In this document: positions 19,816 through 34,283 of the stretch, one piece after another
How the letters are laid out: each line of letters opens with the position of its first letter
Position numbering within the stretch: the stretch's first letter is position 1
Translations under genes and position numbers: made by a program
Notes under the pieces: model-generated
Databases searched by the model: none
What the model was told of the DNA's origin: nothing
What the model saw: the letters and a program-made list of their open reading frames with translations, nothing else
NCBI GenBank assembly: GCA_030765535.1
Contig: JAVCCH010000058.1
Coordinates: 1 to 60,928, forward strand
Length of the DNA stretch: 60,928 nucleotides
Direction of reading: 5' to 3'
Origin: Candidatus Tenebribacter davisii
GTDB lineage: Bacteria; Cloacimonadota; Cloacimonadia; Cloacimonadales; TCS61

Positions 19816-20388
19816 ATGAAAAAAATAGCAACTATATTAGTGTTAGTTATAATATTGAGTGCTTGTTCGAAACAATCTGATCTCTCTGTATATAATGACA
19901 CGGGTAAATCAATCAAGGTGATCCTAGGAAGTACAATTCATCAATTAATGCCGAATGATCCTCCAGCTGTGGAAACATGTTATCTTAATTCTTTTATTTT
20001 ATTTGGTGAAACAAAAAAAGTTTCAGTTATTGTAGAAGGACAGGTATTCCTGAAGCACAAAGATTTTAGTGTAGAGATGAAACCTGGTAAAGATAGATCT
20101 TATCATGTAGAACTTGATAGAGCTGGGCTTCAGATTAGTAATCCCACAGTTTTTACCATAACAGCTGTAGATCTTAAAAGAGAAGATGATAATGAGTGGG
20201 TTTTTAGTGTATTAAGTGCTCCGGATGTAATTTATTCAGAGGAATTAAGTGCGATCATATCAGTTTTAGAGTATTATGACAATATTAGGATTGAATATCA
20301 AATTGGAATTGATCAATATGCCTACAAAGAAGATTTAGTAGAATTAAATATTGGTGAAACAACTACATATGTTTTTTTATTAGACTAA
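19816..20388 (+). CDS. Lipoprotein of unknown function
   Basis: A 190-residue predicted lipoprotein: signal peptide MKKIATILVLVIILSAC with lipobox LSAC, so lipidation is expected at Cys17. The mature part is beta-rich and starts 'LSVYNDTGKSIKVILG', which suggests an Ig-like or carboxypeptidase-regulatory-like sandwich. I do not recognise a family. Its 3' end overlaps the convergent kinase-like gene by 4 bases. Confidence 0.7.
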   Translation: MKKIATILVLVIILSACSKQSDLSVYNDTGKSIKVILGSTIHQLMPNDPPAVETCYLNSFILFGETKKVSVIVEGQVFLKHKDFSVEMKPGKDRSYHVELDRAGLQISNPTVFTITAVDLKREDDNEWVFSVLSAPDVIYSEELSAIISVLEYYDNIRIEYQIGIDQYAYKEDLVELNIGETTTYVFLLD

Positions 20389-20984
20389 AGAATTTCTCTC
20401 ATTAACTCTCTATTTTGTAAGATATGTGGATGTGTTTTTGTTTTACCGAACTTTTTCCTGCGGTAATCGAATTTCTCAATAATTTCAGGTAAGATCATCT
20501 GCCATTCCAGCGGATTAATTATTTTTTTTTGTCTATAGGTATTTATAACTTGTTCAAAAACAAATTTGAATTTTGTATATTCATATTCAGAAGCCCAAAA
20601 TAGAAGAAAATGAATTATATCTGACTCAGGATAATCATAGTCCCACTCGCTAAAATCAAGCATGAAGTAATCTCCATTAGAATAAAGATAATTTTTAGGA
20701 TTATTATCAGAATGGCATAAACATTTATCACCTTTAGATTCAAGTGCATGGAACTTCAACATTAATTCTGTGATTTTTTCAAAATTTGGTTGAGCAAGAT
20801 CTATAATTGGTATACCATCTATATATTCCAAAATTAAAGTATTTTTTCCATCATGGTCGATCAATCTTGGAATAAAGGGTAATTTTTTTTTATAAATGAA
20901 TAATTCCTTTTTGAACATTTTTGGAGAATTGCATATTTTGATAACTTGATTATTTTGTTTATTAATTATTATTTCTGATTTCAT
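20385..20984 (-). CDS. Protein-kinase-like fold protein (APH/choline-kinase-like)
   Basis: A 199-residue protein with the core of an aminoglycoside/choline-kinase-like fold. A hinge 'LILEYIDG' is near residue 70, the catalytic loop is CHSDNNPKNYL (HxDxxxxN) and the metal-binding motif is LDFSEWDYD. The N-lobe is short, with no glycine-rich loop I can identify. The substrate is unknown; possibilities include a small metabolite or protein. It begins 2 bases after mobB, so it is probably the last gene of the operon that starts at 26891. Confidence 0.75.
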   Translation of the reverse strand: MKSEIIINKQNNQVIKICNSPKMFKKELFIYKKKLPFIPRLIDHDGKNTLILEYIDGIPIIDLAQPNFEKITELMLKFHALESKGDKCLCHSDNNPKNYLYSNGDYFMLDFSEWDYDYPESDIIHFLLFWASEYEYTKFKFVFEQVINTYRQKKIINPLEWQMILPEIIEKFDYRRKKFGKTKTHPHILQNRELMREIL

Positions 20985-20986
20985 AA

Positions 20987-21736
20987 TTATTTTCTAATTT
21001 TAATATCAATACTGTCTCCATCGTTATATCCCTTTAAGTTATTAAAATAAGCTTTAATAACGTCTTTTAAAGTGTTTTGGACATAGGGTACAATATTAAT
21101 ATTCTTACCATCAATTTTTATTTCTATATCTAGATTACGATCTGTTTTACAGTCTTCACGGGTATTTCTTCCAGCTAGAATTCCAGCTACCATTTCTCTA
21201 CAGTTCATGCCACATTCTCCACAGCATTCTAATTTTGGTAGTGGAAGCACAGGGAAAACTTTTTCTATTACCAGATCTGTTAAACCTTTAATGTCTTCCT
21301 TTGATTTAAAAACTTTTAATTTATTAAATTTATCATGATCATTAGCATATATGCCTGAAATTGCGAAAACAGTTCCATCAACCAGCTCATCTAGTTGCAC
21401 CTCGTTCTCAGCACAAATAATACGGGGAAGAGCTACACTTTTCATTCCTTCCACAACAACATAATCACTATCTAAATGTGAGAGCATCTCATTTAAGGTG
21501 AGTTGCCTGTTCCAAATTTGATAAGTTTCAGATAATCCCCTGGCGATAACAGTGTCATTACTAGCTTGAGCATGCTTCCAACTATTACTACCAATTTTTT
21601 CCATAGTAAATTTATCGCTATGAATATCTTTTATAGAAGTTACTTTATAACCTCTTTTTTTTAGTTCTTTTATAAGTTCTATAACTACAGTGGTCTTGCC
21701 TGTATGGTGATATCCAGCCACACTAAAAACTTTCAT
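20987..21736 (-). CDS. mobB: Molybdopterin-guanine dinucleotide biosynthesis protein MobB, with Cys-rich segment
   Basis: A 249-residue P-loop GTPase family protein. Walker A is GYHHTGKTT (8-16), and 'KDIHSDKFTMEKIGSNSWKHAQA' and 'DYVVVEGMKS' follow the MobB pattern. Beyond the normal domain it has a cysteine cluster (ECCGECGMNC, then REDC) near residues 168-196, seen in MobB-like proteins of some anaerobes. MobB assists formation of the guanine-dinucleotide form of the molybdenum cofactor. No other moa, moe or mob gene is in the window. It lies 3 bases after the TPR-GGDEF gene. Confidence 0.88.
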   Translation of the reverse strand: MKVFSVAGYHHTGKTTVVIELIKELKKRGYKVTSIKDIHSDKFTMEKIGSNSWKHAQASNDTVIARGLSETYQIWNRQLTLNEMLSHLDSDYVVVEGMKSVALPRIICAENEVQLDELVDGTVFAISGIYANDHDKFNKLKVFKSKEDIKGLTDLVIEKVFPVLPLPKLECCGECGMNCREMVAGILAGRNTREDCKTDRNLDIEIKIDGKNINIVPYVQNTLKDVIKAYFNNLKGYNDGDSIDIKIRK

Positions 21737-23602: not shown

Positions 23603-24245
23603 TTATGGATGAATTATTCCCAGCCAGTCTCCCAATAGGAATTGTAATCTGCCTATTAGAAGGGAAATACGAGCCATTGCTGTATACCCAAATGCAGCAC
23701 CAAAACTGACCATAAGAAAATAAATACCAATCTTTGCTGAAACTCCTAAAGCACCTTCATGTTTCTTACTAAAATAAAAATATATAACACCACAAATAGT
23801 GCCAACAATAAGCATCAATTCACCAATTATTATGACCCAATTATCACTCAAAAATGGATTTATCATTGTAGCAGTTAACTGATTCAATACATCAGATTTT
23901 AGATAACGTAGAAAGAAAACGCCTGATGTAGTTCCTATTACTATGGATATTGGAAAACGACTTACCCATTCTGTTTTGGGGATTAAACGCATCAACATCA
24001 TAATTCCCAATACTGCTGGAATTAATTTGATCCAGTTAGCACTAAAATCTTGTGTAATGGGATTGTATAAATTTGGAATGAGAATGAAGAAGATAGTATA
24101 AACAAACCAGTAACCGGCTGAAAGACCAACAAATATTTGTTCAGCAGTTTTATAAAAGGGATTATCTTTATAAAGGAAACTAAATATAGCAAATGTAAAT
24201 AAAGCACCAAGCCAGGTACCCAGGATAGTAAAAAATTAGTTCCAT
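23603..24245 (-). CDS. Polytopic membrane protein of unknown function, disrupted by a one-base frameshift
   Basis: From 24010 down to 23603 the frame encodes the end of a membrane protein, but no normal start exists there (only an internal TTG). Continuing the same frame upstream gives more good membrane-protein sequence (LGTWLGALFTFAIFSF and so on) until a stop at 24236-24238. An ATG at 24245 with AAGGGAG 7 bases upstream reads MELIF and then goes out of frame. Removing one base from the six-base A run at 24230-24235 (T on the coding strand) joins the two into a 213-residue protein with about six membrane segments. It is the fourth gene of the DUF6754 module. The cause may be a sequencing or assembly indel or a real mutation. 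Confidence 0.75.
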
Positions 24246-24272
24246 TATCTATCTCCCTTCTTATCTGATTTT

Positions 24273-25079
24273 TTATTTCTTCCAGTAATTGATATTACCA
24301 ATAATGATAAAAATAATAATAATCAAATGTGCCATTGATTGAGCATCCATGCCGCTTGTAGCAGTTCCCGGTGCCTGCAATAAATTTTCATATTCAGCTG
24401 CAGCTTTTAAACCAGCCAGAAGACCTGTTAGTTGTTTTTGCTCGTTTACATACGGTAACATCGCAGGTGCACTTACACCGGTACATCCGCCTGATGTTGG
24501 TCTGCCATAAGCATCATGAGAAATTTGTACCCATTCTTTGATGCCTGGAGCTCCAGCCGATAGAGAAAAAACAAAATTAATATTATTAAAATTATTTATT
24601 CCATCCATAATTGGAAGTTCATCTATTTTATTTCCGTTCGTGTCTTCTGGAAATACTTTCCTAAAATTTTTCCCCATTGACTGGATAGTGATCATACCTC
24701 CGGCTTTAAAACCTAAATTTACATAATCAACGCCATATTGTAGATTAGGATACTGATCTTGGAGTTGTGATATGATATCTTCAGCCATTTGTACACCCAT
24801 GGGCCAGAGGGCTGTAAAAATAACATTAATATCTTTATCAAAGCAATGTTTGAGAAGTGCTTTTGCCATAGGATGTAATTCCGGCATACTGGCAGGATCA
24901 TAATCAAAAGAGATAAGTGCTTTAGAATCTTTTGGCATACTCTCTACCAGATCATAAACTATTTGAACGTTTTTGGAAGTTTCTATCGGTAACCCAATAG
25001 TAAAGATCAATGGAAGTGCAACTCCTACAAAGATCAATAAGAATAACCAACGTCTGTCAATTTGCTTTGATTTACCCAT
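24273..25079 (-). CDS. Membrane-anchored protein of unknown function in the DUF6754 module
   Basis: A 268-residue protein with a membrane segment near each end (about 11-29 and 248-262) and a soluble domain between, probably on the periplasmic side. The soluble part has alternating strands and helices ('ALISFDYDPASMPELHPMAKALLKH', 'DINVIFTALWPMG') and a conserved-looking GRPTSGGCTGVSAPAM stretch late in the domain. I do not recognise a named family. Its ATG overlaps the stop of the 231-residue gene by one base, so production is probably coupled. Confidence 0.75.
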   Translation of the reverse strand: MGKSKQIDRRWLFLLIFVGVALPLIFTIGLPIETSKNVQIVYDLVESMPKDSKALISFDYDPASMPELHPMAKALLKHCFDKDINVIFTALWPMGVQMAEDIISQLQDQYPNLQYGVDYVNLGFKAGGMITIQSMGKNFRKVFPEDTNGNKIDELPIMDGINNFNNINFVFSLSAGAPGIKEWVQISHDAYGRPTSGGCTGVSAPAMLPYVNEQKQLTGLLAGLKAAAEYENLLQAPGTATSGMDAQSMAHLIIIIFIIIGNINYWKK

Positions 25080-25774
25080 TATTCACCTCCCAGATAGGAT
25101 CTTTCAATTCCCAGAATGATCCTCAAGGAACTTCCAATAATTCCTAAACCTGCCCCTATCATAATAGCACGTTGACCGGCAGTTGTGGGATATGTCATAA
25201 TAAATTCTGACACATTTGGAAGGTGAAGAAAACTTAATGAATTTGGTAGCCAGCTAGTGAGAAAAACACCCAGGCTTGTATTACCAAGCATAACAAGAAC
25301 TGCTGCGATAAGAAGTAGATTTGATTCCAGTGTTCTTCCAATAAATGCTCTATATGCTGCTGAAGCTATAAAAAAAGCCAATAGTGAGAACATGGTTGCC
25401 TGCAGATGTTGATATACATTGAAAAAAAGGTAATCAAAAGGTTTATATCCCATCACACTAGATATTGATTCACCATGACCAAGAATACCGGGGCTTTTCC
25501 CAGTTCCCCATAAAAAGCCAATTGTAACCATTGTAATAAAACTAAGTAGTGTTATTATATAAAATTGCCAATCACGTTGTTTAAATTGGATTTTTAAAAT
25601 ATTTACTTTAAATAAGCTTAATTGACCTAATAATATAGCAAAACCAGAAATTATCAGGAACCATATTTCCAGTTCTCCCGAAAGTTGACCAAATGGTTTA
25701 TGAGGGATGAATTCTGAAATTATTAATATAATTCCTACCGTGAATGTAATAAATAATGGTAATTTTCTTTTCAT
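25079..25774 (-). CDS. Polytopic membrane protein of unknown function in the DUF6754 module
   Basis: A 231-residue protein with about six hydrophobic segments and short loops. No catalytic motif is visible. A strong AAGGAG precedes the ATG. It begins 10 bases after the DUF6754 gene and overlaps the next gene by one base; the tight packing suggests the four proteins form one inner-membrane complex (inference). Confidence 0.75.
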   Translation of the reverse strand: MKRKLPLFITFTVGIILIISEFIPHKPFGQLSGELEIWFLIISGFAILLGQLSLFKVNILKIQFKQRDWQFYIITLLSFITMVTIGFLWGTGKSPGILGHGESISSVMGYKPFDYLFFNVYQHLQATMFSLLAFFIASAAYRAFIGRTLESNLLLIAAVLVMLGNTSLGVFLTSWLPNSLSFLHLPNVSEFIMTYPTTAGQRAIMIGAGLGIIGSSLRIILGIERSYLGGE

Positions 25775-25784
25775 GTTCTGCTCC

Positions 25785-26891
25785 TTAATGTATCGTTAAG
25801 AAATCTTTGAGGAAGTGAATACCTGAAATCTCAAGAATTATACCAATAGTTAGAATAACAACAAATATTGCTTTACCAAAATCTTGTCCTTTCAAGCTTC
25901 CAAGTTGGTGTGGATCTTTTGATAGATAAGCTGAAGCAGCAAATAATTCTTCACCGATCAACGTAAAATCACAGGCGACAACAAAGAACGGAAGTTGGCT
26001 TGGCATAGCTGTACCTGCAGTTTGAATTGCACCGCTGGAGAATCCGGTCTCAGCTAATATTAATGATTCTGCATAAAAAGCTCCAAGGAAGAAATTAGCT
26101 GCTGGTTTCTCTCGTACTATAATGCCGTCAACTCCAGCAACGTAACCAAATTGATCATCCGTAAGATAAAATACAGAATCAGGATCATAGGCATCAGGGC
26201 GTCCTGCTTTCATATAAGCTTCTTTTACGATCTCTTTGGCTGTAGAAAGTACCATTGAACGACAAACAGGAACAATTAATTTGGAATCATATTCAGCAGC
26301 TTTTTGGGCTAATCTTCTTAAAATCGTTAGTCCAGCTATCGTCTGCATATCATCAAGGTCTAATGTGCCGGGGATAAAAAGGATTGGTCTTCCCATCTCG
26401 GTTGCACGTCCAACCGACTCATCCATTGATTCCAAACCGCCGATCTTTCTTATAAAAAGTTCTTTGCCGCTTTTTGCAGAAAAAATATAATAAAGAATTG
26501 CAAGTGTTATTAGAGATGCCAATATTAATAAGGATATTTTGTCTTTATCAAACCATTGAGCAGAAGTTTTTGCCTTTGATTTACTAATATGAATTATTTC
26601 ACCTATATTATTATAAGCAGTTATGCGATATGTATAAATATTTTTTGGATCAATGTTTGTACCGTCTTCATATGAGCCGGTAATTTCTTCTGATTTTAAA
26701 ATTTTAACAAACTCTCCATTAGGTGTTTCTCTCTCAATTATTATATTTGCAGGTTGAATTTGAGTAGTATCCCAAGACAATATTAAAGCTGAACCATCAT
26801 CATTAGGCTTATCTTTTATATTAAGTATACCTTCTTGAGAGTATAAGAAACATGCACAGAAAATGAAAAGACAAAGAAATGTTTTTTTCAT
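25785..26891 (-). CDS. FnIII-DUF6754 membrane protein
   Basis: A 368-residue protein: signal peptide (1-18), a fibronectin-III-like domain (about 28-105), a membrane segment (about 116-134), then a conserved soluble region (about 140-340) and a final membrane segment (about 345-363). The block with IGGLESMDESVGRATEMGRP, PVCRSMVLSTAKEIVKEAY and GSLKGQDFGK matches what I know as DUF6754, a family without assigned function. GGAG precedes the ATG. It is the first gene of a seven-gene minus-strand operon. The family name is from memory. Confidence 0.78.
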   Translation of the reverse strand: MKKTFLCLFIFCACFLYSQEGILNIKDKPNDDGSALILSWDTTQIQPANIIIERETPNGEFVKILKSEEITGSYEDGTNIDPKNIYTYRITAYNNIGEIIHISKSKAKTSAQWFDKDKISLLILASLITLAILYYIFSAKSGKELFIRKIGGLESMDESVGRATEMGRPILFIPGTLDLDDMQTIAGLTILRRLAQKAAEYDSKLIVPVCRSMVLSTAKEIVKEAYMKAGRPDAYDPDSVFYLTDDQFGYVAGVDGIIVREKPAANFFLGAFYAESLILAETGFSSGAIQTAGTAMPSQLPFFVVACDFTLIGEELFAASAYLSKDPHQLGSLKGQDFGKAIFVVILTIGIILEISGIHFLKDFLTIH

Positions 26892-26976: not shown

Positions 26977-27750
26977 TTAAAAATATATAATTACTATTAT
27001 AAATATTATGAAAGAACAAATCTGTACAACTAGATCATACCACTTCAATTTTGCCTGATAAATGAATGTCCTATCAGGATATAATCTAAAAGCACGAAGT
27101 TCTAAAGAAATGGAACGATATTTCACATCTGAAATTGCTCTGGCAATGATGGGGAAAACTAAAGCTGCATAGATTTTAAATCGCTTTAATATTGAAGGTT
27201 TAGAAATTTCAATTCCCCGCAGATTCAGGGCTTCTCTGCTTGAGATAAATTGTTTATGAAAAATGGGGATGAAATGAATGACCGAAGCTATCAAAAAGGA
27301 AATTTCGTAAGGAATTTTCCAACTACGAAATGCTAGAATATAGTCATAGTAAGGAATATCCAGGAGCAGCCCGGCTATAAGAACAATTAGCATTAGACGT
27401 AGGGAAGAAGAGACACCATAGCTAACACCTATAGTTGTGATCTTGAGAATTCCATACTGCCAGATAACCTCTCCGCCATGTCTAAACAATATCTGAAAAA
27501 TCATTAACGTGACAACTATCTTCAGAATCATTTTCATTCTATGCATCAATCTATGAAATCTATGTTTTGAGGGCTGAATTATTAGAAGAAGAAGAATTGA
27601 AAATAGTAGTAGAGAGAACTGCATTAATATTGTATTATGAACAACCGAAAGAGTGGTAATTGCAGACACTATTATTATTATCGTCCGCAAGTTCAAAAGT
27701 GTGGAACTATCATTTGTTTTAGTTTCTCTTACTTGTGTTTTCAATTTCAT
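26977..27750 (-). CDS. Energy-coupling factor transporter, transmembrane T component
   Basis: A protein of about 257 residues of the CbiQ/EcfT family, which couples the two ECF ATPases to a substrate-binding S component. It has about five or six membrane segments and two Ala-Arg-Gly-like coupling motifs late in the chain (ALNLRGI and LELRAF). The frame opens at a GTG at 27774 inside the receptor gene. I prefer the ATG at 27750, with AAGG 8 bases upstream. It is the last gene of the ECF cluster. Confidence 0.88.
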   Translation of the reverse strand: MKLKTQVRETKTNDSSTLLNLRTIIIIVSAITTLSVVHNTILMQFSLLLFSILLLLIIQPSKHRFHRLMHRMKMILKIVVTLMIFQILFRHGGEVIWQYGILKITTIGVSYGVSSSLRLMLIVLIAGLLLDIPYYDYILAFRSWKIPYEISFLIASVIHFIPIFHKQFISSREALNLRGIEISKPSILKRFKIYAALVFPIIARAISDVKYRSISLELRAFRLYPDRTFIYQAKLKWYDLVVQICSFIIFIIVIIYF

Positions 27751-27760
27751 ATCCTGAACC

Positions 27761-29650
27761 TTATAAGAATTCACCTTCTAAGCTTAAAATAAAATTTATG
27801 CCTTCTCCGGGATATCCATATTTTTCCTGGAAATTAACATCAAAAATGTTTTCAACTCCAAACATGAATTTATATCTACTTAACTTCTTATTAAAGTAGA
27901 CAGAATGAAGCAAATAAGCAGGGAGCATAATATTTTCTTCTGTATGGCGAACATCGTTCCAAATTGTTTTATACTCCATATTTATAGTATAAGGAAGTTC
28001 AACTCTTTCAGTTAGGCTGGCCGAATGTTTTGGAACCTCCAGTAACTTAGAATTGCTGCTGTCTGAATACTTTAAAAATGAATAATCAATTTGATGTTCC
28101 CATAAAAAGAAAATTTTTGCAGAAGCTTCATAACCATATGAGTCAATTTTATTTATATTTAAGTATGTACCACTTACTTTTTCTATCAATCCTGATATAT
28201 GATTATAATAAACTGATTGATTTAAAGAACCTGATAAGAAGCCGGATGAGTAGGGAATAAGTAAATTAAATTCCCCTTTTTGAGCACGTTCTTCTGTTAG
28301 GCTACTGTTACCGCTGCTGGAGCTGAATAGATGATGCATAGTAGGGTATTTAGTATTAGAAGAAAATGCTAATGACAATTTCCAATTGGACGGATTGGCA
28401 TAGTATATCCCAGCTGACGGTTCAAAATGAGAGATCCAATTTTCTCTATCATTTTGTTTAAAAAATGAGAATCCGCTGCCGGCGGTAAGATTAAATAATT
28501 TATATTCAAATTCAGTTTGATAAAAGATGTTATGCTTTAATTGCTGATTTCCATACCAGTCAGGGTAATTTCCATCATCTTTTCTCTGATAAGCCTCTTT
28601 CTCAAAGCGGTAGCCAAAGGATGAGTTTAAACTTCCGGTAATTTCCCAATCAAATTTTTGATGTGCACCAAAGATCCAGCTTTTAATATTTGAAGGCCAT
28701 ATTGAATACATTTCACCGGTATTGGGATTGTATTCTGCATAGGTATCATCATATCTATCGAAGTAGATATTCACATTGGAAGTAAGGTTGTATCTAAGCT
28801 GGAAGGAACCAAGAGTTGAAATTTGATATCGTTTCCAATCAGTAAATTTACGTAAACTGTTTTCATAGATGCTACTTGGTATCTCTTTTTTATTCATGAA
28901 AGTATACCCGGTTTGAAATCCGATCGAATGAAAATCAAATACTGTAAAATTTAGTTTGGATTGAAAATTCCATTGATCTCTGTCGCAGTTATTTCTTTCA
29001 CCACCATTCTCATTACTGGTAGGTTCGAAGCTTTTTGAAAGCATAAAACCATCAGTTTGATAGTGAGAAGCATAGAGCCAATAATCCCATAAACCTAGAT
29101 CACGAGCTGAAGAGATAAACGATTTATTAGTATTATTGCGTTTGAATTCAGTTCCCATTTTTAACCAGGATGTATTGGAAGGTGATTCAGTAATGATATT
29201 TACAACTCCTCCCATTGTGTCCGAACCATATAGAGATGAAACCGGACCTTTGAGAATCTGGATCTCTTTAATATCCGAAACTGGAATTGTATTAAGATCA
29301 ACATTACCAAAATATCCACCGCCTAGTGGTCTGCCATCAAGCATTATCTTTATCTGATCATTGGCAAAACCCCTAATACTTAATGAACTCCCGGATTTAC
29401 CTCCGGTAGAGACATGTAATCCATTTACATTATCCACTAAAGCAGCTATATTTGTTTCAGGGAGCGACAATATTGGATCAAACTCCAATACTTCTATTGC
29501 TCCAATCGTTTCTTCCGGTCTATCTGCAATTACCCTGATACCTTCTAAATTATAATGTCGTTTATGTGTTTTAAGTGTATCGTCTTCAGAAGCGAATAAA
29601 AAATTTGCAAAAATTAATAAAATAAAAATAACTAATAATTTATTTTTCAA
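27761..29650 (-). CDS. TonB-dependent outer-membrane receptor (BtuB/cobalamin-siderophore-like)
   Basis: A 629-residue outer-membrane transporter: signal peptide (1-20), a plug domain (about 40-150) with 'SIRGFANDQIKIMLDGRPL' and 'LKGPVSSLYGSDTMGGVVNIIT', then a 22-strand-type barrel. Substrates of this group are cobalamin, haem, siderophores or similar. It lies inside an ECF operon, which suggests it delivers the same substrate to the periplasm. Start TTG with GAGGA 5 bases upstream, overlapping the ATPase stop by 4 bases. TonB and ExbBD are not in the window. Confidence 0.93.
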   Translation of the reverse strand: MKNKLLVIFILLIFANFLFASEDDTLKTHKRHYNLEGIRVIADRPEETIGAIEVLEFDPILSLPETNIAALVDNVNGLHVSTGGKSGSSLSIRGFANDQIKIMLDGRPLGGGYFGNVDLNTIPVSDIKEIQILKGPVSSLYGSDTMGGVVNIITESPSNTSWLKMGTEFKRNNTNKSFISSARDLGLWDYWLYASHYQTDGFMLSKSFEPTSNENGGERNNCDRDQWNFQSKLNFTVFDFHSIGFQTGYTFMNKKEIPSSIYENSLRKFTDWKRYQISTLGSFQLRYNLTSNVNIYFDRYDDTYAEYNPNTGEMYSIWPSNIKSWIFGAHQKFDWEITGSLNSSFGYRFEKEAYQRKDDGNYPDWYGNQQLKHNIFYQTEFEYKLFNLTAGSGFSFFKQNDRENWISHFEPSAGIYYANPSNWKLSLAFSSNTKYPTMHHLFSSSSGNSSLTEERAQKGEFNLLIPYSSGFLSGSLNQSVYYNHISGLIEKVSGTYLNINKIDSYGYEASAKIFFLWEHQIDYSFLKYSDSSNSKLLEVPKHSASLTERVELPYTINMEYKTIWNDVRHTEENIMLPAYLLHSVYFNKKLSRYKFMFGVENIFDVNFQEKYGYPGEGINFILSLEGEFL

Positions 29651-30318
29651 TTGTTCCTCAAAATTTCTTCAATGCTTTTATCTTTGATAGTATAATATTT
29701 ATCAATAAGGTTTTTGAATTGTTCTTCTTTATGAGAAATTATAAGACATCCTTTTCCTAAAAGTTTTCTCTTCTCTAAGATCTCAATAAAAATATCTGTT
29801 AACTTAGTATCAAGGCCAGAGATCGGTTCATCAAGGATCCAGTACTTATCGTAATGTATGAGTAATGCAGCAAGACCTATTCTCTTAATTTGTCCTCCGC
29901 TTAATTCCCAAAAGGGTTGATCTTTAAGATCCTTGATCTTTAGTTTATCCATAACTCTTTCCCTGAGTATAGAAGAGGATTCGTCTAGATCTTTATCAAA
30001 CCCATGTTGCCATATAGCAAGATCTTCATCAGGTGTTGTTGCAACAACATTTGCCTGAGGTTCCTGTTTAAGATAAATAATAGATTTTGAACGTTCTGAA
30101 AATGAAATTGTATTCATCTCAAGATAATTCATAATTAAAGAGCCGGTATAGTTCTTCTCTAATCCACTGAGAATTCGGCATAATGTTGTCTTGCCTGAAC
30201 CGTTAGCACCATTTAAAAAAGTAATTTCATTAAATGAGAGATTAAATGAAGTATCTATAAAAATTTTATTTTGATCATTGTAGGCAAATGACAGATCTTT
30301 AGTTTTAATACCTTTCAT
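29647..30318 (-). CDS. Energy-coupling factor ATPase (EcfA-type)
   Basis: A 223-residue ABC ATPase. Walker A GANGSGKTTL, signature LSGGQIKR, Walker B 'KYWILDEP' and a late switch His are present. It overlaps the other ECF ATPase gene by 14 bases and the receptor gene by 4. Together the two would form the heterodimeric motor of the ECF transporter on the cytoplasmic face. Confidence 0.92.
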   Translation of the reverse strand: MKGIKTKDLSFAYNDQNKIFIDTSFNLSFNEITFLNGANGSGKTTLCRILSGLEKNYTGSLIMNYLEMNTISFSERSKSIIYLKQEPQANVVATTPDEDLAIWQHGFDKDLDESSSILRERVMDKLKIKDLKDQPFWELSGGQIKRIGLAALLIHYDKYWILDEPISGLDTKLTDIFIEILEKRKLLGKGCLIISHKEEQFKNLIDKYYTIKDKSIEEILRNN

Positions 30319-30967
30319 TTAAATTTTCCATTTCAATTGTTTTATTAGCAAATTCATTGATATTAATATTATGACCAGCAATAAAAATAATTTTACCATT
30401 TTCTGCTTGAGTTTTAATTTCTGTTGAAATTACTTTAATATATTCGTTAGAAAGGCCTGCAAAGGGTTCATCTAAGAGAAAAATATCCGGTGACAAAGTA
30501 ATTATAGAGGCTAGAGAAACTAATTTTTTCTGACCAAAAGATAGAGCTGAAGTTTCTTTGAGTCTCAGGTCTTTAATGTTCAATCTGTTAAGAACTTCAT
30601 CTATTCTTTTGATAATATCATTTGTTGGTATTTTCAGGTTTTCAGGACCAAAGGCAAGTTCCTGTTCAACTGTGGGGAAAAAGAGCTGGTTATCCGGATG
30701 CTGCATTAAAAGGCTTATCCGTGGCGCTATTTCGGGAAGTGTAAGATTAGAGATATCTACTTCGTTGTGAATAATATTACCACTAAGATCTCCATTAAAT
30801 ATTTTTGGGATCACTCCACAAATTATATTTAAGAGGGTAGTTTTACCAGAACCGCTATCACCTTGGATAGCTATTATATCCTTATTATCAGCAGAGAATG
30901 TAAAATTATTGATCAAATTAACTGAAGTTTCATGATAGCGAAAAGATACATTCTTTATTTCTAACAT
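30305..30967 (-). CDS. Energy-coupling factor ATPase (EcfA-type)
   Basis: A 220-residue ABC ATPase. Walker A is GDSGSGKTTL, the signature is the variant LSFGQKK, and Walker B is 'IFLLDEPFAGL'. The presence of two different adjacent ATPases, one with a changed signature, fits an asymmetric ECF motor. Its ATG overlaps the stop of the upstream 138-residue gene by one base. Confidence 0.92.
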   Translation of the reverse strand: MLEIKNVSFRYHETSVNLINNFTFSADNKDIIAIQGDSGSGKTTLLNIICGVIPKIFNGDLSGNIIHNEVDISNLTLPEIAPRISLLMQHPDNQLFFPTVEQELAFGPENLKIPTNDIIKRIDEVLNRLNIKDLRLKETSALSFGQKKLVSLASIITLSPDIFLLDEPFAGLSNEYIKVISTEIKTQAENGKIIFIAGHNININEFANKTIEMENLNERY

Positions 30968-31383
30968 TATTTTATTTCGATCTCTGAGATATATTTCATC
31001 CAGCGTTGACTAAACTCATCAGAGGGGATTACAAGGCGTATATAATCATCTTGAAATATTAGATATAAGAATTCACTTTCCTCTTTATTAACGTTAAGAG
31101 TACCACCATCATTTGAGTGGAAAGAGTATGTCGTCTTACTATCTGCAGGTATTTTTTTTGAATTTAAAATAGCTGTAAGATCATATCCACTGAACTTATC
31201 ACCACGTGCAGTAGTAAAGCTAATTTTCTCAAAAGAATTTAACTTAGAAAATGTTAAAATTTCAACTTTATTGTTGTGAATTATCTTAATACCAGTTTCG
31301 TCAGTTTTTTTACTTTTTTGGAAATATAATAGTAAGAAAAGTATCACAATCAGAATTCCAAGAATTATTAATATTTTTTTCAT
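30967..31383 (-). CDS. Membrane-anchored single SUOX-fold-like domain protein
   Basis: A 138-residue protein with an N-terminal membrane anchor (about 3-20) and one domain outside. 'KFSGYDLTAILNSKKI', 'TYSFHSNDGG' and 'IRLVIPSDEFSQRWMKYISEIEI' follow the outline of the molybdopterin-binding domain of sulfite-oxidase-family proteins (last strand after the R(L)V(I)P and W-K-I elements). The cofactor-binding Cys of sulfite oxidase is absent. The same pattern occurs in three neighbouring genes. The fold assignment is my inference; a binding role for the transporter substrate is proposed by context. Confidence 0.7.
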   Translation of the reverse strand: MKKILIILGILIVILFLLLYFQKSKKTDETGIKIIHNNKVEILTFSKLNSFEKISFTTARGDKFSGYDLTAILNSKKIPADSKTTYSFHSNDGGTLNVNKEESEFLYLIFQDDYIRLVIPSDEFSQRWMKYISEIEIK

Positions 31384-31385
31384 AA

Positions 31386-31829
31386 TTACTTTCCAGGGAG
31401 TTCTTTATATTTCCTTGAATAAAATCCGTTTTTACTGCTTTGACCTAGAAAATCAAACTCATCTAATCGCTTAGAGAATCGATTTTCCTTACTTGATGTT
31501 TTAGTATATACACAGATCTCTTCTATGTTTTTTATATTACAAACTGTAGGTAGTTTCTCTGTTTTAGAATTCCATTTGCCATTCTCTTTTATTATCATGA
31601 TCTCTGGAAAACTGCGTGATGTAATTAATGCTGCTGTTCCATCGGAACCTATCAAGATCGTATATTTAATGGCAGGAGATATATCTTTGAGGATATTGCC
31701 TAATCTTCCGGCTTTGATAATTTCAGTTCCTTCTTTTACATTACCTGTAATACTAAGATTGTTTGATGAACATGCGAACAGCAATAGGATTATCAGTCCC
31801 AGAAAAATTCGCTTTACCATTCTAACCAT
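31386..31829 (-). CDS. Lipoprotein with one SUOX-fold-like domain
   Basis: A 147-residue lipoprotein: MVRMVKRIFLGLIILLLFAC with lipobox LFAC. The domain 'ILIGSDGTAALITSRSF ... IKNIEEICVYT' resembles the second half of the 324-residue neighbour. GGAG lies 9 bases before the ATG at 31829, so the gene overlaps the upstream gene by 16 bases; another ATG is at 31820. Likely periplasmic and a candidate substrate-capture partner for the ECF system. Confidence 0.7.
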   Translation of the reverse strand: MVRMVKRIFLGLIILLLFACSSNNLSITGNVKEGTEIIKAGRLGNILKDISPAIKYTILIGSDGTAALITSRSFPEIMIIKENGKWNSKTEKLPTVCNIKNIEEICVYTKTSSKENRFSKRLDEFDFLGQSSKNGFYSRKYKELPGK

Positions 31830-32722
31830 TTTGCTTTACTCCAAGTTGTACTGTTAAAGTAAGTTACAGAACTCTGCATTATTTTAGTTTCATCATAATG
31901 CAGGATCACATTTGATGGAAATGTTTTCCAATTCAGCAATTCATTTACATGTGAAAGTGACTCAAAATGATCTTTAAAAACAACGGCAATATCAAATATC
32001 TGAATATATGCAATATCTTTGATCCACATTCCGGCTGGCATATCGGGGCTGCGAAGGTCATAGGAGTCGTTGGTTTTAATTAATACAGCATTTTTAAGAT
32101 ACTTGGCAAAGTTTAAATTATGTTTTACACCATCCTTACCAACAACAAGAACTTCATCTTTAAGGAACGGAAAAGCTTGAACCATGATCTCAGGAAAAGT
32201 GTAGCCTGTTACTTCAACAAATGGTGGAAGCTCAGTTTTTATTTGTGTATTTTGGATGATTGGTTCTGCAAAATAGATAGTGTGGGGGAAAGGAATATTG
32301 GCAATAGTTTCTGTTCTTATATTACTGATTCCCTGGATCCAGAACATATCACGCATATGAGGAACAACAAGCCTTATTTGATCTGCATCAAGGATCTTGT
32401 TATTCCTTTCCAGAGCTAAAATACTAGTACTATTCAATAACTCTTTTTTATAAACTCGTACCAGATAATTATCGGAAGAAGCGAAACTTAATTTATCAAA
32501 ATCTGTTATGTTGTATTCAGTTAAAATATCTATAAGTTTAACACCAACCCAATTATCATTTATATTTTCACCATCCTTATTGCGATGTGTAGCTATTTCA
32601 ACTTTTTCAAATTTGTTTAGATCTGATAATTCTAAGTTTATTACTCTTTCATTATCTGTAATTTCTATTGAAAAAAGCAATGAATTTAGAAAAAGTATGA
32701 TACTGATTAACTTTATGTTCAT
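31814..32722 (-). CDS. Secreted protein with two SUOX-fold-like domains
   Basis: About 302 residues from the ATG at 32722, which is preceded by AGGAG and opens a clean signal peptide (MNIKLISIILFLNSLLFSIEI). The frame is open to 32788, but that extension lies inside the S-component gene and would bury the signal. Domain 1 ('NWVGVKLIDILTEYNI ... IRLVVPHMRDMFWIQGISNIRTE') matches the 138-residue protein. Domain 2 ('VLVVGKDGVKHNLNF ... AGMWIKDIAYIQIFD') matches the 147-residue lipoprotein. It therefore looks like a fusion of the two smaller types. The function is unknown. Confidence 0.75.
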   Translation of the reverse strand: MNIKLISIILFLNSLLFSIEITDNERVINLELSDLNKFEKVEIATHRNKDGENINDNWVGVKLIDILTEYNITDFDKLSFASSDNYLVRVYKKELLNSTSILALERNNKILDADQIRLVVPHMRDMFWIQGISNIRTETIANIPFPHTIYFAEPIIQNTQIKTELPPFVEVTGYTFPEIMVQAFPFLKDEVLVVGKDGVKHNLNFAKYLKNAVLIKTNDSYDLRSPDMPAGMWIKDIAYIQIFDIAVVFKDHFESLSHVNELLNWKTFPSNVILHYDETKIMQSSVTYFNSTTWSKAKWLEW

Positions 32723-32729
32723 TTTTCTC

Positions 32730-33266
32730 CTATACGATTCTGAATTTTTGTAATTTTTTGTATATGGAATAAGAAATAATTCCACCAACTATCCCTGATA
32801 TTGAAGCAGCTACCAATGAAATTATGAATGGAATTGTAGAAAGACGCATTACAATTATAGTTACTATGATCGCACCAGTGAGGTTGGCAGCAATTACAAC
32901 TATAACATGAAAAATTAATATTTTTTTATTTTTGAAAAGTAGAGATATTATTTCTGCTATCAAACCAGGCATCGAGTAACTTATCAGTGATACTGCGCCG
33001 TGATTTCCAAAATAGCCCATACTTAGCATTACTATCCCCTGTGTGATACCTACCAGTAATCCTGCTCCGGGTTTATTCACAATAGCTATCGCAAGAGATA
33101 TCCACATCATGTATAAGCCTCCGGCAAGTGAACCTCCCGGAATCATTAAAGGTGCTGAAATAAGATGGATAAGCGGGGTGACGATCGGTTTGACTGCCAG
33201 CCCTAAAGCACTCAGAATAGCTATATATAATAGATCCTGAGAAGAATATTTACGTAACCAGCTCAC
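32730..33266 (-). CDS. ECF transporter S component (substrate-binding membrane subunit)
   Basis: A 178-residue protein with about five or six membrane segments and the small-residue-rich loops of ECF S components ('LIPGGSLAGGLYMMW'-like region and 'GAGLLVGITQG'). It resembles the YkoE/ThiW-like groups, but the substrate cannot be assigned. The start is GTG with no clear ribosome site, 2 bases after the lipoprotein stop, so translation is probably coupled. It completes the S, A, A and T set of this cluster. Confidence 0.82.
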   Translation of the reverse strand: MSWLRKYSSQDLLYIAILSALGLAVKPIVTPLIHLISAPLMIPGGSLAGGLYMMWISLAIAIVNKPGAGLLVGITQGIVMLSMGYFGNHGAVSLISYSMPGLIAEIISLLFKNKKILIFHVIVVIAANLTGAIIVTIIVMRLSTIPFIISLVAASISGIVGGIISYSIYKKLQKFRIV

Positions 33267-33268
33267 AA

Positions 33269-34093
33269 TTATTGTATCTCTAACAGATCAATTTGCAAAA
33301 GTTTTTTAAAACTACTATGAATTTCTGTTCCGTCATCACTTAAGAAAACAGCTTTATTTTGTGTTATCAGCCAATATCCAGTTTGAATATCATCCCATGT
33401 GAAAACAATTTCATCATCATCAGCAGAAGTAAATCTGTACTCGTAATTATTTGGACTCTCAGTTACATAATCAGATATTAAGTTAGTTAGTGCAAATCCT
33501 GGATCAGTATAGAAATTCCCATTTCCTGCTTGATGAAAAATCCCTTCAGTTGTGAATGCACCTGTTTCAAAAATGGTAGTGCTTCCATCCAGGGCTATAT
33601 CGATCTTCCTGTATAACCGTAAGTAATAAGTCTCTTTCACATTATAACCGTTAGGAATATTTTCATCTGGAAAATATGTTCTTCCTTTCTCATCAGGTAG
33701 AAGAAAGCCAGTTATGAGATCTGTCCATGCCAGGTCATAGTAATCATGGTCACGTGGTGAAAAATTACCATCATCATCATTAGAAACGATCTCAATGGCA
33801 AATAATTTCCTGCCATCAAATCCATCTTCATCAATATAGGAATTAACATAATCCATATCAACGAATTGATCAAGAGAATAACCCGTTACTGGCAAATCAT
33901 TGTAAATAACTTGTTCTGATGTGAAATTAAGTAGTTCTGTAGAATCTGGAATTGTGAATTCAATGTCTACAACCTCAGCTAATGCTGGTGGTGTTGGATC
34001 ATCAGTTTCATTACCTGCAGGATTATCATCGCAGGCAGCAAAAGTGAATAAAATGATAATTCCAAATAATAGTAATTTTGTAAATTTGTTCAT
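33269..34093 (-). CDS. Lipoprotein with two SUOX-fold-like domains, first gene of the ECF operon
   Basis: About 274 residues from the ATG at 34093, preceded by GGAGG at 5 bases. The signal peptide ends at the lipobox FAAC. The frame also runs to 34123, but the lipoprotein signal favours the later start. Two repeats follow: one ending 'TYYLRLYRKIDI', and one containing 'GFALTNLISDYV', 'YRFTSADDDEIVF' and 'SFKKLLQIDLLEI'. These align by eye with the SUOX-like domains of the downstream genes. Very acidic (many Asp/Glu), so metal or cationic ligand contact is possible. Confidence 0.72.
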   Translation of the reverse strand: MNKFTKLLLFGIIILFTFAACDDNPAGNETDDPTPPALAEVVDIEFTIPDSTELLNFTSEQVIYNDLPVTGYSLDQFVDMDYVNSYIDEDGFDGRKLFAIEIVSNDDDGNFSPRDHDYYDLAWTDLITGFLLPDEKGRTYFPDENIPNGYNVKETYYLRLYRKIDIALDGSTTIFETGAFTTEGIFHQAGNGNFYTDPGFALTNLISDYVTESPNNYEYRFTSADDDEIVFTWDDIQTGYWLITQNKAVFLSDDGTEIHSSFKKLLQIDLLEIQ

Positions 34094-34283
34094 AAAACCT
34101 CCAAAAAATAATTTTGAAGGCAAGAGGATGAGTTTACTTATTTCCTACTCGCCTTTCCAAACACGGGAGATATTTCCGTTTCCAAAAATACCCTGTCGGT
34201 AAAGTATCATGACTAAAGAATCAGCTTTAGATTTCTTTACTTCAGCGCAAAGACAAAAGTTAAAACGGCGATCTAAATGTCAA
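34094..34283 (-). promoter_or_regulatory. Promoter and structured leader of the ECF/TonB operon (riboswitch candidate)
   Basis: On the minus strand TTGACA (34283-34278) is a perfect -35 box, though the -10 is weak. That leaves an untranslated leader of about 150 bases before the ATG at 34093. The leader holds nested inverted repeats: GTAAAG...CTTTAC around CTAAAG...CTTTAG (about 34195-34241). A GGG-TAUUU/AAAUA-CCC helix covers about 34164-34191. Near the start codon is a 10-bp hairpin pairing GGCGAG-AGGA with UCCU-CUUGCC (about 34117-34153). It does not match any riboswitch consensus I can recall with certainty. Confidence 0.45.

Follow-up and report, generated by a model that had tools for sequence, protein, structure and literature searches.

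A candidate TonB- and ECF-dependent operon for salvage of ready-made Mo/W-pyranopterin cofactor in Cloacimonadota

In Group I ECF vitamin importers (YkoEDC-type, CbiMNQO), a single operon under a riboswitch for the end cofactor encodes the S component, EcfT, and a pair of ATPases, and cobalamin uptake of the BtuB/BtuF/ECF type joins a TonB receptor, a periplasmic capture protein, and an inner-membrane pump, also with a cofactor riboswitch. Moco does not appear among the uptake classes of regulon surveys, which cover B12, thiamin, riboflavin, queuosine, and folate (PMC3766115), and the literature that we searched describes no bacterial importer for it. Molybdate/tungstate transporters often sit downstream of Moco riboswitches (PMC2408646), as TupABC and ModABC do. 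Ready-made Moco from other organisms is taken up with the diet in C. elegans, an animal, with no transporter named in the available portions of the reports (PMC9607355, PMC9793310). Small pterins are bound by PruR, a regulator partner in Proteobacteria, whose pocket probably cannot hold Moco in the judgement of its authors (PMC13259868).

Here, we describe an operon with features of each of these systems in a 60,928-nucleotide stretch of "Candidatus Tenebribacter davisii" DNA (the window). As a preliminary description of this DNA had claimed, the minus strand carries nine genes from 26977 to 34093, with neighbours that overlap or nearly do so. Gene identities were taken from Pfam and NCBIfam profile matches with curated cut-offs, which also recovered the receptor, S component, two ATPases, and EcfT named in that description. 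The nine genes and two probable cytoplasmic partners are as follows.

33269..34093, minus strand: LP1, lipoprotein of 274 aa with lipobox LFTFAAC and two SUOX-like domains (ATG at 34093)
32730..33266, minus strand: S component, substrate-binding membrane protein (PF09819, 51.6 bits against a cut-off of 25.2)
31814..32722, minus strand: M1, exported, two SUOX-fold domains, no cysteine (ATG at 32722; PF00174, 27.8 bits, above the cut-off of 24, scored on the ORF at 31817-32788)
31386..31829, minus strand: LP2, lipoprotein (LLLFACSS) with one SUOX-like domain (hhalign to the C-terminal domain of M1, 91.8%)
30967..31383, minus strand: M2, membrane-anchored, single SUOX-like domain, no cysteine (hhalign to M1, 99.1%)
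30305..30967, minus strand: EcfA1 ATPase (ABC_tran, 79.8 bits; best NCBIfam match ECF_ATPase_1, 142 bits, under its cut-off)
29647..30318, minus strand: EcfA2 ATPase (ABC_tran, 83.8 bits)
27761..29650, minus strand: TonB-dependent outer-membrane receptor, distantly BtuB-like (Plug, 83.2 bits)
26977..27774, minus strand: EcfT transmembrane coupling protein (CbiQ, PF02361, 50.5 bits)
20987..21736, minus strand: MobB/FeS-domain protein, probable cytoplasmic partner (PF03205, 75 bits; TIGR00176, 84.1 bits, cut-off 76.2)
20385..20984, minus strand: APH-like small-molecule kinase, probable cytoplasmic partner (PF01636, 24.5 bits, cut-off 23.2)

By gene content the locus is an ECF transporter, a single operon supplying the S component, EcfT, and both ABC ATPases, and transport of a bound ligand is predicted from sequence. 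It resembles the Group I importers but adds an outer-membrane receptor and four exported SUOX-fold proteins, and its proposed ligand is a different one. Among the operon's genes, Pfam profiles found neither an SBP of the ModABC/TupABC kind nor a BPD-type permease. The preliminary description had overlooked the genes for MobB and the kinase (20385-21736).

About six copies of one sulfite-oxidase-like domain had been proposed for the exported proteins, and profile-profile comparison of family alignments counted six: two each in LP1 and M1 and one each in LP2 and M2. Probabilities from hhalign were highest between the N-terminal domain of M1 and M2 (98.9%) and between the two domains of LP1 (97.1%), followed by the C-terminal domain of M1 with M2 (93.6%), the C-terminal domain of LP1 with the N-terminal domain of M1 (93%), the C-terminal domain of M1 with LP2 (91.8%), and the two domains of M1 (78%); the LP2 copy is the weakest of the six. 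Structure prediction agrees with the suggested fold: the M1 model (pLDDT 91) matched SUOX-fold PDB entries (E = 7e-8), the best of them being pterin-binding PruR structures (7kom, E = 6.7e-8, TM 0.76 by target length, Foldseek), and PruR was also the top PDB match of the LP1 model (pLDDT 93, E = 1.9e-3). Searching PDB sequences with a profile of M2 returned no match. Like PruR, M1 has a SUOX fold, is exported, and lacks the Mo-ligating cysteine, and pterin binding is predicted for it on this likeness. Unlike PruR, which is single-domain and paired with DcpA regulators, the operon has six domain copies beside a transporter. In six relatives, LP2 is fused to a nucleotide-pyrophosphatase domain (PF01663), which is absent from the LP2 of the window.

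A Moco riboswitch sits directly upstream of the operon, with the following features.

34134..34259, minus strand: Moco/Tuco riboswitch aptamer, RF01055 (cmscan 58.9 bits, gathering score 36, E = 1.3e-11, full length 1-135)
34098..34155, minus strand: predicted expression platform (folding)
34153-34148, minus strand: predicted P1 3' strand, GGCGAG (folding)
34128-34117, minus strand: predicted anti-anti-SD (folding)
34120-34112, minus strand: predicted anti-SD, CCUUCAAAA (folding)
34102-34098, minus strand: predicted SD, GGAGG (folding)

The aptamer lies inside the very region treated in the preliminary description, which did not mention it. Its P4 GAAA tetraloop is present (GGAAAC in the covariance-model alignment). 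P3, whose presence would separate Moco from Tuco sensing, looks degenerate in the window. The ligand of the RF01055 class rests on genetics rather than in vitro binding (PMC2408646). Riboswitches lacking P3 also precede "sulphite oxidase" genes in Syntrophomonas wolfei that have had no explanation (PMC2408646) and that may be members of this module. In folding calculations, the SD was unpaired with a probability of 0.29 when the P1 strand was free and 0.00 when it was withheld, and the trend was alike across 68 uptake leaders. An intrinsic terminator was rejected because the U-run lies 8 nt past the hairpin; the leader was therefore read as an SD-sequestering switch, and we predict that it turns translation off.

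We surveyed 125 Cloacimonadota genomes for cofactor synthesis and use. Molybdo/tungsto-enzyme families (AOR, FDH, XDH) occur in 110, comprising AOR in 83/125, XDH-type enzymes in 100/125, and FDH-like enzymes in about 22. Most PF00384 matches of about 1100-1180 aa were left out of this count, as they look like non-Moco complex subunits. A family with strong PF00174 matches (f2) was also not counted, since the ligand Cys is replaced by Ser (TSVTRWS) in each of the 12 members inspected. Synthesis genes were nearly absent: MoaE and, above cut-off, the MoaA C-domain were found in 0/125 genomes, MoeA in two, and MoaC in three, with control detection in 11/14 for each search. The S component is present in 83/125 genomes, 82 of them users and one a non-user (Fisher p = 5e-7), and within genera where both vary, 30/31 genomes agree (product p = 1e-5). 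All three genomes carrying MoaC lack the S component, an exclusivity tested by these three genomes only and expected by chance at about 0.04 from the counts. In the two MoeA genomes (G059 and G093), the riboswitch leads Tup/Mod-type tungstate/molybdate ABC genes instead of the uptake system, and in one of them these run on into MoeA-MoaA-MoaC-MogA. TupABC/ModABC-type transporters, which share the riboswitch class but belong to other protein families, occur where synthesis genes do and the new system where they do not. Across the phylum, 75/106 riboswitches precede the uptake system (the window's own and 74/105 others), with the remainder mainly before AOR (8) or P5C dehydrogenase (15). A further 21 user genomes, nine near-complete, have no S component, riboswitch, or biosynthesis genes, and the uptake system therefore does not explain all users.

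Conservation of the exported genes with the ECF genes, on which the preliminary description had made its proposal depend, holds across the phylum and into Firmicutes, where the same module recurs with a Moco riboswitch. Cultured carriers of the module include Sedimentibacter acidaminivorans and Alkaliphilus peptidifermentans. Of the Firmicutes loci examined, most have MobB directly after EcfT, as do several Cloacimonadota, and the kinase comes after MobB in about ten relatives' loci. Outside Cloacimonadota, MoaC is retained in 15 of the 25 genomes with an S component, and import is therefore not the sole source there.

Altogether, the Mo/W cofactor is indicated by the riboswitch, by the lack of Moco synthesis genes, by the likeness of the fold to PruR, and by the linkage to MobB and nucleotide pyrophosphatase, and we consider it probable that the operon salvages this cofactor ready-made in a TonB- and ECF-dependent manner. 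The earlier candidates were a pterin, cobalamin, haem, or a molybdate-related ligand; of these, the pterin stands, specifically as a metal-pterin cofactor, and the same evidence speaks against the others. The TonB receptor would carry cofactor shed by other cells through the outer membrane, and LP1, M1, LP2, and M2, acting by binding and not catalysis, would hold its pterin part in the periplasm and hand it on. In relatives whose LP2 has a nucleotide-pyrophosphatase half, this half may remove the nucleotide from MGD/MCD. The S component with EcfA1/A2/T would then drive the cofactor into the cell, where MobB and the kinase might modify it for use by enzymes of the AOR, FDH, and XDH types, and cofactor-bound riboswitch would mask the Shine-Dalgarno sequence to turn the operon off. 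The operon would work much as cobalamin uptake does, but its class of riboswitch, the fold of its capture proteins, and its partner enzymes are those of Moco and not B12.

It is unlikely that the ligand is instead a metal-free or smaller pterin (molybdopterin, cyclic pyranopterin, a dephospho form, or a simple pterin) to which an unrecognised enzyme adds metal inside the cell. The capture domains do resemble a binder of small pterins (PMC13259868), and MobB and the kinase suggest intracellular processing; however, the metal-insertion protein MoeA is missing in 123/125 genomes and MoaE in all, and such a precursor could therefore not be finished by known enzymes. More doubtful still is import of molybdate/tungstate or a metal chelate. 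Although this is the classic target of Moco riboswitches (PMC2408646), as in G059 and G093, free metal would be of no use without MoeA, MoaE, and MoaC, genomes of the phylum that have MoeA or MoaC lack the S component, and the riboswitch in the two MoeA genomes controls an ABC transporter. A TonB receptor and capture proteins of the pterin type also fit a larger, scarcer ligand better.

Two readings seem highly improbable. The S component family PF09819 includes the thiamin-related YkoE, and the receptor is distantly BtuB-like, which might suggest another vitamin (an HMP/thiamin precursor or a corrinoid) with Moco sensed for an indirect reason. Yet the receptor missed every BtuB/B12 cut-off by far (TIGR01779, 114 bits against a curated 600), the scan of the window that found RF01055 returned no B12 or TPP riboswitch, and the Moco riboswitch is kept with the module across phyla. 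Cobalamin, haem, and thiamin were rejected as substrates on the failed receptor cut-offs and the riboswitch class. Equally, it is hard to credit that the exported proteins are molybdoenzymes or pterin sensors that the ECF genes merely supply, as the PF00174 match and the regulatory partnership of PruR (PMC13259868) might suggest. M1 and M2 of the window contain no cysteine to ligate Mo, and none is conserved in A5 or A3, for which reason we rejected a role as functional molybdoenzymes; the exported proteins keep to ECF/TonB genes, with no DcpA-type c-di-GMP regulator among the operon's neighbours.

Several hundred prokaryotes have molybdoproteins without a complete cofactor pathway, for which unknown synthesis genes or Mo-independent enzymes have been suggested (PMC6147048). 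Import of the Mo/W cofactor offers a third answer, here with named, testable genes. The hosts of the operon are most likely an uncultured group that no longer makes this cofactor and takes it up from outside. On balance, we favour the view that this is the first bacterial importer of complete Mo/W-pyranopterin cofactor, and that it let nearly a whole phylum lose synthesis while keeping its molybdo- and tungsto-enzymes. If true, this would account for a substantial share of the organisms with "orphan molybdoproteins" and would make the Mo/W cofactor a shared good in anaerobic communities.

The nine-gene minus-strand operon claimed in the preliminary description was borne out, with genes overlapping or nearly so in the order LP1, S, M1, LP2, M2, EcfA1, EcfA2, TonB receptor, and EcfT, where LP1 and LP2 are lipoproteins, S is the ECF S component, M1 is exported, and M2 is membrane anchored. 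Pfam families were assigned to S (PF09819), M1 (PF00174), EcfT (CbiQ), both ATPases (ABC_tran), and the receptor (Plug), which is distantly BtuB-like (114 bits versus a cutoff of 600). Absent from that earlier account was a riboswitch for the molybdenum or tungsten cofactor (Moco/Tuco), which ends 40 nt upstream of the LP1 start codon at 34093:

34259-34134, minus strand, Moco/Tuco riboswitch RF01055 (Rfam, full length, 58.9 bits versus a gathering score of 36)

LP1, M1, and M2 were joined by iterated profiles, and hhalign of sub-alignments linked N- and C-terminal domains as M1N to M2 (98.9%), LP1N to LP1C (97.1%), M1C to M2 (93.6%), LP1C to M1N (93%), M1C to LP2N (91.8%), and M1N to M1C (78%). 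These links therefore indicate six copies of a SUOX-like domain, that in LP2 being least sure, and with Foldseek of the M1 model they uphold the earlier proposal of about six repeats. AlphaFold models of M1 and LP1 had pLDDT values of 91 and 93. The top Foldseek hit for M1 was PruR, a periplasmic pterin-binding protein (E 6.7e-8, TM 0.76 by target length), followed by sulfite dehydrogenases and YedY; PruR was also the top, weaker hit for LP1 (E 1.9e-3). Since neither M1 nor M2 contains cysteine, they cannot ligate Mo in the manner of sulfite oxidase. PruR is without the Mo-ligating cysteine as well, and in its authors' judgment Moco would probably not fit the pocket (PMC13259868). Family f2 commonly has PF00174 proteins of ~200 aa (L034-L041, L168, L169, L172, and L173), most scoring 96-121 bits. 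In these, Ser replaces the Cys that would ligate Mo (TSVTRWS), and they are also present where the genome lacks Mo enzymes or the importer.

Among 125 Cloacimonadota genomes, many of them MAGs, neither the MoaA C-terminal domain (above cutoff) nor MoaE was found, and MoeA and MoaC were found in two and three; each of the four was detected in 11 of 14 control genomes. All four were absent from the 10 genomes of the window's genus. Cofactor-using enzymes, with AOR and XDH assigned by family rather than function, were widespread: AOR in 83/125 genomes, XDH-type MoCoBD_1 in 100/125, and FDH-like PF00384 in about 22/125 (several with in-frame TGA, as expected for selenocysteine), with at least one in 110/125. 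The S component occurred in 83/125 genomes, 82 users and one nonuser (Fisher p 5e-7, relatedness ignored). Because that test ignores relatedness, we compared genomes within the genera where both S and use vary (g24, g25, and g26), and 30 of 31 agreed (product p 1e-5). In 21 user genomes, nine near-complete, neither an import nor a synthesis route was found. No S, Moco riboswitch, or MoaC/MoeA was found in G046, G052, G074, G076, G086, G088, G092, G116, and G117, which are near-complete and encode AOR or XDH-type enzymes.

MoaC was confined to G059, G064, and G093, all without S. The G093 riboswitch precedes TupA-TupB-TupC, then MoeA, MoaA, MoaC, a MOSC protein, and MogA, and that of G059 precedes a ModA-like ABC transporter. 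This pattern suggests, but in three genomes does not prove, that cofactor makers import metal while others have the ECF/TonB system. Two Cloacimonadota with MoeA-MoaA-MoaC-MogA (L073 and L165) have no MoaE and a short MoaA (~265 aa).

RF01055 was present in 75/125 Cloacimonadota genomes. Targets of 105 further riboswitches were uptake genes (74), aldehyde dehydrogenase (15), AOR (8), and other or truncated genes (8); uptake genes formed either the full nine-gene operon or separate LP1-TonB receptor and S-M1-A1-A2-T units, each with its own riboswitch. Folding of the LP1 leader predicted two mutually exclusive structures: one pairs the 3' strand of stem P1 with GCCUU, freeing the Shine-Dalgarno GGAGG, and the other pairs CCUUCAAAA with UUUUGGAGG, hiding it. 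With leaders classed by gene content, the median predicted chance of an unpaired Shine-Dalgarno across 68 Cloacimonadota uptake leaders fell from 0.31 to 0.01 once the P1 strand was withheld; in four scorable AOR leaders it was ~0.84 even then. Because the site is predicted to close in uptake leaders, the model predicts repression of uptake genes when cofactor is plentiful. At the AOR-gene riboswitches L070, L101, L138, and L058 the site is predicted to be accessible in either state, in contrast to the uptake leaders, so that their switching logic may differ. At L142:8799-10421 (minus strand), and at 14 other loci mostly in family f2, a Moco riboswitch lies 5' of L-glutamate gamma-semialdehyde dehydrogenase (TIGR01236, 806 bits at L142), perhaps a Moco-independent stand-in aldehyde oxidizer. 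At L072:854-6112 a Moco riboswitch heads an AOR that is split: a NuoE-like 2Fe-2S domain is joined to its N-terminal domain, and its C-terminal part lies two genes further on.

By S identity (82-85%), the window's closest named relatives are the Cloacimonadota "Ca. Tenebribacter burtonii" and T. mawsonii. Scanning with the S alignment returned 260 relatives; among the best 80 are Clostridia, Halanaerobiales, Tissierellales, Limnochordia, and Coatesbacteria, with isolates such as Sedimentibacter acidaminivorans, Alkaliphilus peptidifermentans, and Anaerovirgula multivorans. The typical order outside the phylum is SUOX-domain proteins, S, LP2 (with an extension of pyrophosphatase length), M2, A1, A2, T, MobB, and kinase, and RF01055 lies upstream or nearby in most such modules. 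LP2 is extended by a PF01663 nucleotide-pyrophosphatase domain in many relatives (31-49 bits versus 23). MobB lies directly 3' of EcfT in most Firmicutes loci examined and several Cloacimonadota, often followed by an APH-like kinase; the window has both:

20385-21736, MobB and APH-like kinase

In the window, EcfT is followed at 23603-26891 (minus strand) by four genes, one for a DUF6754 protein and three for membrane proteins, and genes of matching sizes sit between EcfT and MobB in several relatives. Some Firmicutes modules (L227:1935-5873, L234, and L251) also encode apparently exported proteins of great length, 1177-1337 aa, that of L227 (1313 aa) weakly matching the M2 profile.

These linked parts suit a mechanism whose steps we infer to run from clipping of a dinucleotide cofactor outside the cell, by the pyrophosphatase domain of relatives' LP2, to reworking inside by MobB and the kinase. 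Because MoeA is missing, the ligand would be metal-loaded cofactor. What the data show directly is the set of parts and its linkage, the riboswitch, the fold, the missing synthesis genes, and the co-occurrence with user enzymes. The literature searched contained no report of a bacterial Moco importer, and organisms with orphan molybdoproteins are on record, left unexplained (PMC6147048). In S. wolfei, riboswitch RNAs lacking stem P3 adjoin genes listed as "sulphite oxidase" (PMC2408646); these genes may represent the same uptake module. Since MoaC is kept in 15 of 25 non-Cloacimonadota genomes with S, import outside the phylum may supplement synthesis.
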